DNA of 64,000 bases. It comes from Thermodesulfobacterium sp. GTDB lineage: Bacteria; Desulfobacterota; Thermodesulfobacteria; Thermodesulfobacteriales; Thermodesulfobacteriaceae. The notes under the pieces were generated by a model. The model had not been told where the DNA came from, did no database searches, and saw only the letters and a list, made by a program, of their open reading frames with translations. The translations under genes and the position numbers were made by a program. The stretch spans positions 1 to 64,000 of the forward strand of contig JACDNX010000001.1 of NCBI GenBank assembly GCA_017656385.1. The letters are read 5' to 3'. This document shows positions 57,053 through 59,005 of this stretch, piece by piece; positions within the stretch are counted from its first letter, which is position 1, and every line of letters begins with the position of its first letter.

Positions 57053-57823
57053 ATGAGAAAGTATCTGTTTGCTGGAAATTGGAAAATGAACAAAACCCTG
57101 AAAGAAGTAGAAGATTATTTTGATAAATTTTTGAAAAAACTTTCTGAGATTAATTTATCTGATAGAGAAATTATGATTGCTCCGCCTTTTACATCTTTAG
57201 CTTATTGTCAGAGCATTTTGAAGGATAAACCTTTAAAATTAGGAGCACAAAATTCCTGTTGGGAAGAGAAAGGAGCTTTTACAGGCGAAATATCACCTAA
57301 AATGCTTAAAGAATTGGGAGTTGAATATGTAATATTAGGACATTCTGAAAGAAGACACATTTTTGGAGAAACCAACGAGATTATTGCCAGAAGAGTAGAA
57401 GGTGTTTATAAATTTGGGCTTATACCTATTTTATGTGTGGGAGAAACACTTGAAGAAAGAAATAAAGGAAAAACTCTGGAAGTGGTAGAAACCCAACTTT
57501 CAGAGGGTTTAAAAGCTATAAAAGAAATAAAGGAGAATGAGCCAGTTATTGCCTATGAGCCTGTATGGGCTATAGGAACAGGGATTACCGCAACACCTGA
57601 ACAGGCAGAGGAAGTTCACCTTTTTATCAGAGAAAAATTAAAAAAGCTTTATTCAGAAGAGATAGCAGGGAAAATTAGAATTCTTTATGGTGGAAGTGTT
57701 ACTCCAGATAATATCAAAGATTTAATGAAAAAACCTAATATAGATGGTGTTCTTGTTGGAGGTGCATCCCTTGATCCAGAAAAGTTTTTTAAAATCTGCA
57801 GTATAAAAGTGGAGAAGGAATAA
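57053..57823 (+). CDS. tpiA: Triosephosphate isomerase
   Basis: The 256-residue TIM barrel has the substrate lysine in GNWKMNK (K11), the catalytic histidine H97 in LGHSERR, the catalytic base E169 in AYEPVWAIGTG, and the phosphate loop GGSVTPDN and GVLVGGASL. It interconverts dihydroxyacetone phosphate and glyceraldehyde 3-phosphate. AAAAGGAGAAGAG precedes the ATG. It follows pgk in the ppsA operon. Confidence 0.97.
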   Translation: MRKYLFAGNWKMNKTLKEVEDYFDKFLKKLSEINLSDREIMIAPPFTSLAYCQSILKDKPLKLGAQNSCWEEKGAFTGEISPKMLKELGVEYVILGHSERRHIFGETNEIIARRVEGVYKFGLIPILCVGETLEERNKGKTLEVVETQLSEGLKAIKEIKENEPVIAYEPVWAIGTGITATPEQAEEVHLFIREKLKKLYSEEIAGKIRILYGGSVTPDNIKDLMKKPNIDGVLVGGASLDPEKFFKICSIKVEKE

Positions 57824-57824
57824 A

Positions 57825-58274
57825 ATGGTAGAAGAAACTTGTGAATTGCCAAACTATTCGGATATCTCTCAGGCAATTTTAGAGATTCCAAAAAAATATA
57901 AAAACATAGTTATAGTGGGAGCAAGCCATAAGCCTGAGCGTCCGAGTTATAAGGTAATGGAATATCTTCTTAAAGAAGGATTTAAAGTAATTCCTGTTAA
58001 TCCTGCAAGAGAGGAAATTTTAGGACAAAAGGTTTATCCGTCTTTATCTGATTTGCCTCCCAAGTTTTATCCTGAAGTTATTATAATTTTTAGAAGATCT
58101 GATCAGGTTTTACCAATTGTTAAGGAAGCTATAAAGTTAAAGCCAAAAGTGATATGGATGCAGGAAGGAATAATTAATGAAGAAGCCAAAAAATTAGCAG
58201 AAAAAGAAGAAATAAAAGTAGTAATGAATAAATGTTTCAAAAAGGTTCACATTCTTGGTAAAAATAAATCCTGA
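57825..58274 (+). CDS. CoA-binding domain protein
   Basis: The 149-residue protein is a single Rossmann-like CoA-binding domain: IVIVGASHKPERPSYKVMEYL near 28-48 in one strand-loop-helix unit, FKVIPVNPAREEILGQKVYPSLSDLP near 53-78, and VIWMQEGIINEEA near 110. Such stand-alone proteins bind CoA or nucleotides; the role is not known. A conserved NKCFK near the C terminus is typical. It starts one base after the tpiA stop. Confidence 0.85.
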   Translation: MVEETCELPNYSDISQAILEIPKKYKNIVIVGASHKPERPSYKVMEYLLKEGFKVIPVNPAREEILGQKVYPSLSDLPPKFYPEVIIIFRRSDQVLPIVKEAIKLKPKVIWMQEGIINEEAKKLAEKEEIKVVMNKCFKKVHILGKNKS

Positions 58275-58282
58275 CAGAGAAT

Positions 58283-59005
58283 ATGTCCCCTGATACATCC
58301 TTAGAGCTTTATAATACCTTTGAAAAACTTAAAAATACAATTTCTAAAAACAGAACTGAGTTAATAGATTTAAATCTTTCCAGTATAGTAATTTCTGCTA
58401 AGAGATACATCTCCTTAGAAAATTTAAATGAAACGTTTATGGAATTTTTGATAAGGCTTTCTGAAGCTATCTATTTTAAAAGTTGCTTGTTATTAAATAT
58501 TCATAGTGTAAACGAAGAAATTTCCGAAGATTTAGAAGAGAGTAATTTAAAGGGAAACTTAATGGAAGAAAGACTTAACTATTCCAAAGCCCTTACCTTA
58601 GAGAGGGTTTTGTTTGAGAAGATCTTTTTAACCAAGATTTCAGAAGACATCTTAAAAAATTTTGAGAGTAAGGGTTTTTTTGGGGCTGGGCAGAAAAGTT
58701 TAATTTTAGGAGCAATTTTATCTGTTTTGAAAAGAGAAGGGGTAAAAGAGGAAATACTTAAAAATTTTTCCTCATATTCAATTGAGTTTTATTTAGAAAG
58801 TTTAAAGGATTATCTTGAAAAAAAGATATCTTTTTCATTTAGAGAACTCATAGAGGAAAAGCTAAACAGAGAGGGAAACGAAAAGTTTTTAGGGATTGTG
58901 TATTATTTTTTATCCCTTTTGTTTTTGTGTTTGGAAGATTTGTGTTATATGATTCAAAATAACGAAAATGAAGACATTATAATTTTTTCAAAAATGTATC
59001 GCTAA
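58283..59005 (+). CDS. Divergent ScpA-like protein, tentative
   Basis: The 240-residue, mostly helical protein is not clearly recognisable. Its N-terminal segment (about residues 20-70: NRTELIDLNLSSIV followed by FMEFLIRLSEAIYFKSCLLL) follows the pattern of ScpA's kleisin N terminus (IDIYDI... then EFLxxAAxLLxIKSxxLL). The C terminus (FRELIEEKL, FLGIVYYFLSLLFLCLEDL and a DIIIF end) resembles the ScpA winged helix. ScpA links the SMC heads for chromosome condensation. The match is by eye only. No scpB is seen. Confidence 0.5.
   Translation: MSPDTSLELYNTFEKLKNTISKNRTELIDLNLSSIVISAKRYISLENLNETFMEFLIRLSEAIYFKSCLLLNIHSVNEEISEDLEESNLKGNLMEERLNYSKALTLERVLFEKIFLTKISEDILKNFESKGFFGAGQKSLILGAILSVLKREGVKEEILKNFSSYSIEFYLESLKDYLEKKISFSFRELIEEKLNREGNEKFLGIVYYFLSLLFLCLEDLCYMIQNNENEDIIIFSKMYR

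Follow-up and report, generated by a model that had tools for sequence, protein, structure and literature searches.

The window, the whole stretch of DNA that was analysed, comprises 64,000 nucleotides of Thermodesulfobacterium sp. In it tpiA (57053-57823) is followed by a CoA_binding_2 gene (57825-58274, forward strand) and, 8 bases after the stop of the latter, by an open reading frame of 240 codons on the same strand (58283-59005, ATG at 58283, stop codon at 59003-59005). An Fe-S protein gene begins 208 bases 3' of this frame and is succeeded by nuo genes. The CoA_binding_2 gene, assigned from its match to Pfam PF13380 and from tables of neighbouring genes, lies outside the complex considered below and served us as a synteny marker. 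A first-pass annotation had read the frame as a possible strongly diverged ScpA, the kleisin of the SMC-ScpAB condensin, since the patterns at both ends of the protein appeared to follow ScpA. The segments quoted for this reading are all present in the 240 aa protein: IDLNLSSIV occupies residues 28-36, EFLIRLSEAIYFKSCLLL residues 54-71, and FRELIEEKL, FLSLLFLCLEDL and DIIIF lie near the C-terminal end. In the following the frame is called the scpA-like gene, a designation that is based on the frame itself, the profile-profile match to ScpA, the synteny and the co-loss with ScpB and SMC.

The frame is confirmed as a real, conserved gene. Searching with the single sequence provided homologues in 18 of 60 genomes, its own included, while a search with a profile built from the diverged relatives (profile A1, see below) found the gene in 26 of the 30 genomes of the host's family, where one match is a 29-residue gene end at a contig border. 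None of these 26 matches contains an internal stop, two of them being cut by a contig end. For three congeners a dN/dS of 0.14-0.21 was obtained, with synonymous sites near saturation in two of the three. Given this distribution, the absence of internal stops and the dN/dS values, the frame did not arise by chance. The 10 named loci that carry the gene include Thermodesulfobacterium geofontis, T. hydrogeniphilum, T. hveragerdense and T. thermophilum as well as Caldimicrobium MAGs. The lineage of the diverged protein is Thermodesulfobacterium and its relatives.

Searches with single sequences gave weak results. The best match in a Pfam scan of the window protein alone was SMC_ScpA with 16.7 bits (E 0.0075). 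This is below the PF02616 gathering score of 24.6 bits, which is a detection threshold and not a property of the protein. From the 18 diverged relatives that make up alignment A1 (the L003 row ends early at a contig end), four matched Pfam ScpA with an E value not above 1 (lowest 8.6e-5), and the other 14 were without such a match. With the window protein alone NCBIfam returned one chance match to an unrelated family, PHROGs gave no match, and phmmer against the PDB sequences provided chance matches only (a splicing factor). In the window's own genome, which has a size of 1.67 Mb and is rated 100% complete, no sequence scored above the PF02616 cut-off, and profile A1 matched only the gene at 58283-59005. 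At an E of 0.1 PF02616 gave two sub-threshold places in this genome, namely this gene and a stretch in an 842-aa frame (G000:C1:88289-88483).

For profile-profile comparison A1 was aligned by hhalign to A2, an alignment of 13 canonical ScpAs, 7 from the order and 6 from the phylum. A2 omits canonical matches with wrong or over-long frames, near-copies and fragments, and its L021 row is shortened at the C-terminus. The two profiles matched at 98.8% (E 1.3e-16, score 113.6) and were collinear over 215 columns. Reversed profiles scored 16.4 and 16.7, the best among 50 column shuffles scored 21.4, and ScpB together with 13 unrelated neighbouring families reached at most 5.3% against A1 when subjected to the same treatment. 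The profile-profile comparison that had been proposed as a check gives a strong match that survives reversed, shuffled and unrelated controls. Run against all PDB sequences, profile A1 returned five rows up to E 10. Three of them are ScpA chains, with the C-terminal domain of ScpA in 4i99_C as the best row (E 0.0025), followed by 5xns_C (E 0.039) and 3w6j_A (E 0.087); the non-ScpA rows had E values of 0.078 and 0.35. The matches to 4i99_C and 5xns_C are hardly independent, because both align with nearly the same letters. Both 4i99 and 5xns are archaeal ScpAs, and it is to the C-terminal domain that A1 aligns best among the PDB sequences.

Further evidence comes from intermediate sequences, which are found in the genera g4 and g5 of the host's family in the same slot before the nuo operon. 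Alignment A3 holds six of the seven intermediates, G023 being excluded for its 666-aa frame with an unclear start. All six A3 members match Pfam ScpA (best 3.7e-14), and all six match the NCBIfam ScpA models, one member shown being far below their strict cut-offs. With pieces summed, the g4 and g5 slot genes reach 27.9 to 46.7 bits for PF02616, and by hmmscan G017 reaches 36.1 bits. By hhalign A3 matches canonical ScpA at 99.9% (E 5e-33) and the diverged A1 at 98.7% (E 1.5e-16). Profile A1, although built without the intermediates, finds each A3 gene as the sole match in its genome (E 5e-12 to 3e-17) and also the G023 gene (1e-18). In a tree of the sequences a supported branch separates each of A1, A2 and A3 from the rest, but the three are not ordered by it. 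Any three sets of this kind are joined at a single node, and the tree alone does not place the intermediates between the other two; it includes a very long G014 row and six rows with an unusual letter make-up.

The position of the gene is well kept within the family. All 15 stretches compared, i.e. the window and 14 more of the family, carry nuo genes downstream. In nine of the 15 the CoA-binding gene immediately precedes the scpA-like gene, and in two (L052, L053) it is one opposite-strand gene away. It is missing in L062, where tpiA adjoins, was not seen in L064, and would lie past the contig end in L063 and L065. A clear ScpA of 90.2 bits sits directly after the same CoA-binding gene in G036, which belongs to another family of the order; here a methyltransferase gene comes after scpA. 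With the window genome's ScpB as query, no scpB match was obtained near canonical scpA in the stretches L068, L055 and L060. As a separate observation, scpA in g4 and g5 is adjoined by an opposite-strand gene coding for about 410-430 aa (L052:6681-7973, L053:3027-4265, L064:4112-5410); in L052 and L053 it is this gene that sits between scpA and the CoA-binding gene.

The N-terminal helical domain covers residues 3-71 (58289-58495, forward strand) as judged from A1 and the hhalign columns, and holds IDLNLSSIV as well as the segment of residues 54-71. By analogy to the role described in the available passages of PMC7055376, it would be expected to bind the SMC neck. Y64, K66, S67 and L71 are invariant across the 18 relatives. 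When folded alone, the N-terminal 76 residues are modelled as helices with a pLDDT of 79, and the profile aligns them with those of ScpA. Foldseek of the N-terminal domain alone gave 30 matches, none below E 3.5, and kleisins do not stand out among them; two are Smc5/6 entries, one at rank 18 (7p47_B, a chain not clearly identifiable as a kleisin) and one at rank 23 (7qcd_F). VIA-align provided Z 7.2 for 7qcd_F and Z 6.7 for 7tve_G, tied with unrelated helix bundles, and we gave these fold matches no weight. The middle region (residues 73-140, 58499-58702, forward strand) takes the place of the canonical ScpB-binding segment according to length counts, the alignments and the available part of section 3.5 of PMC7055376.

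The C-terminal domain (residues 166-240, 58778-59002, forward strand) is predicted to be a winged helix, in agreement with the first-pass annotation, and from its secondary structure and its likeness to 5h66_C and 4i99_C would presumably contact the SMC head at the cap. The predicted elements are a helix (167-180), a strand (183-185), two helices (186-193, 199-217) and two strands (221-226, 231-236); residues 167-236 are accordingly modelled in the helix-strand-helix-helix-strand-strand order of a winged helix. The model of the whole chain is of low quality (pLDDT 54, pTM 0.36, residues 71-164 with pLDDT below 50). In a Foldseek search of this model against the PDB ranks 1-11 were all SMC-complex entries, including 5h66_C and 4i99_C, with no E below 0.001; ranks 1-4, 9 and 10 have a meaningless rmsd above 30, and the chain was taken to be the kleisin where the row is silent. 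For the C-terminal domain VIA-align gave Z 9.7 and an rmsd of 2.3 over 66 residues with 23% identity for 5h66_C, and Z 9.1 and an rmsd of 2.3 over 65 residues with 28% identity for 4i99_C. Since both tie with unrelated winged helices, the winged-helix fold alone is unspecific. Structure prediction on the protein alone gives a kleisin-like C-terminal winged helix at low overall confidence; nothing can be concluded from the fold search with the N-terminal domain.

The protein departs from canonical ScpA in its signature motifs. FEGP is found near the N-terminus in 13 of 13 canonical rows, but was seen neither in the six A3 rows nor in A1, where 17 rows retain the N-terminus and L003 is cut. As ScpA models still recognise the A3 proteins despite this loss, FEGP can be regarded as a signature and not as a prerequisite. 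In the middle, ScpB-binding region, the DPR motif is invariant in 13 of 13 canonical rows and was not seen in the alignments of the diverged A1 rows. Applying boundaries that we set ourselves, the middle region measures 57-68 residues in the 18 diverged proteins, 57-65 in the 13 canonical ones and 54-56 in the intermediates. With this length the room for ScpB would be kept, though the sequence is not. Across 21 genomes the identity to the window protein is 25-65% for ScpA, compared to 53-87% for ScpB; in nine of these genomes TpiA is 58-85% and the CoA-binding protein 51-85% identical. By these identities ScpA has diverged far faster than its partner ScpB.

Such rapid divergence together with the loss of FEGP and DPR would also fit an ScpA descendant that no longer acts as a bridging kleisin, i.e. 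a decaying or repurposed gene. We consider this very improbable, however: the dN/dS of 0.14-0.21 and the 26 matches free of internal stops argue against it, the KS..LL and winged-helix cores stay conserved in A1, and SMC and ScpB are kept in most of the same genomes, with all three being absent together in G003 and G006.

The partners were found in the window's own genome. It contains a single canonical ScpB (E 3.5e-51, G000:C11:3043-3570) and, at G000:C2:186345-189773, an SMC of 1143 aa, in which the Walker A, signature and Walker B motifs were recognised by eye. Among the 30 family genomes, the ScpA-like gene is present in 26, ScpB in 26 and SMC in 25. Considering the 23 family genomes that are at least 90% complete, 19 have all three genes. 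None of the three is found in G003, which is 93% complete, and in G006, which is 99% complete and 6% contaminated. G023 is without a ScpB match and G004 without an SMC match, though the ScpA-like gene is present in both; perhaps these are assembly gaps. The absence of the gene in G011 and its fragment in G026 look like assembly gaps as well: the contig of G011 breaks off at the CoA-binding gene, and the slot of G026 is interrupted by a gap between two contigs, one of which ends in the 29-residue gene end. G015 is only 64% complete and was left unjudged for the presence of the gene.

The two sister genomes of the genus, G003 (G003:C22, L122) and G006 (G006:C3, L121), seem to be without SMC, ScpA and ScpB altogether. 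Their slot is closed, with 141 and 131 bases, respectively, from the end of the CoA-binding gene to the next gene; in G003 the CoA-binding gene is in one reading frame with tpiA. The best SMC_N matches in the two genomes are frames of 556 and 246 residues, and larger frames match weakly only. What was lost is exactly the three partners. As both genomes are close sisters (NuoD identity of 95.8%), their joint absence counts as one loss event.

The SMC itself may also have changed. The hinge model PF06470 matched none of the 30 family genomes and none of the 10 genomes of family f3, the observation including the locus L126:346-3774 on the reverse strand; it does match the f2 genome and 14 of the 19 other genomes of the phylum. 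SMC was therefore traced by its own sequence. Judged from these matches, the SMC hinge looks diverged too in the host's family and in f3.

Taken together, the gene at 58283-59005 is almost certainly the ScpA orthologue of this genome, a strongly diverged kleisin of the SMC-ScpAB condensin. The collinear profile match demonstrates homology over nearly the whole length, and the position demonstrates orthology; co-occurrence and co-loss with SMC and ScpB are likewise demonstrated. The reading as a diverged ScpA is supported by the profile match, by the recognisable ScpAs in the same slot and by the joint absence with ScpB and SMC. The first-pass annotation had named findings that would speak against it. 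As it turned out, scpB and SMC are present and no canonical scpA was found elsewhere in the genome by PF02616 and profile A1, the profile match is strong, and the predicted winged helix is kleisin-like. A chance resemblance to ScpA, in a helical protein of other origin that happens to end in a winged helix (e.g. a regulator), could account for the weak single-sequence searches and for a winged helix that by itself matches many folds, but is very unlikely, to the point of being hardly credible, because intermediates recognised by Pfam and NCBIfam exist in the same slot, in addition to the near-full-length collinear profile match with clean controls, the lack of another ScpA in the genome and the co-loss with ScpB and SMC.

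The diverged ScpA is a variant of a known protein and not a new system. In canonical ScpA the N-terminal domain is located on the SMC neck and the C-terminal winged helix on the cap, according to the available passages of PMC7055376. We infer that the diverged ScpA binds SMC and ScpB as well. Most likely it would bridge the two ATPase heads of the SMC dimer: the N-terminal helices would contact one SMC at the neck, the C-terminal winged helix would contact the second at the cap, and ScpB would sit on the middle segment. The ring would thus be closed, and in this way the chromosome would be organised and segregated.

With bacterial ScpA (PF02616; solved in 3zgx, 3w6j, 4i98 and 5h66) the window protein shares the near-full-length collinearity, the predicted N-terminal helices, the predicted C-terminal winged helix, a similar length of the middle region and the presence of SMC and ScpB in the same genome. 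It differs in having neither FEGP nor DPR and in that its single sequence stays below the Pfam cut-off. The intermediate ScpAs of g4 and g5 resemble it in the slot before the nuo operon and in that FEGP was also not seen; in contrast to it they are still matched by the Pfam and NCBIfam ScpA models, and their middle region is a little shorter (54-56 residues). Archaeal ScpAs likewise depart from the bacterial middle segment: in the passages available from PMC7055376 the middle region comprises 61-72 residues with a ScpB-binding interface in bacteria and 30-66 residues in archaea, where it is shorter in most ScpAs and where the tested ones bound no ScpB. Unlike these, the window protein has the bacterial middle length and co-occurs with ScpB. 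A literature search by title or start of abstract found no paper describing this diverged ScpA; two papers, PMC7203096 among them, are unrelated judging by their available passages.

A broader remodelling of SMC-ScpAB in the Thermodesulfobacteriaceae is conceivable, if rather doubtful. In this case a kleisin without FEGP and DPR would hold the neck and ScpB differently; together with an SMC hinge that Pfam does not recognise in two families of the order and one genus branch that drops the whole complex, this would constitute a series found in nature that starts with canonical condensin and ends with its absence. A graded series within one order (canonical, intermediate, diverged, all three gone) allows one to ask which of the contacts between SMC, kleisin and ScpB are dispensable. 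A kleisin can drift below the model cut-offs while its partners remain recognisable, and where ScpA appears to be absent beside SMC and ScpB, it may simply have escaped detection; lineages of this kind will be miscounted in surveys that rely on PF02616 for ScpA. Among the control genomes, Thermus composti and Deinobacterium chartae have a ScpB match and no ScpA match, and a diverged ScpA may have been overlooked there as well.
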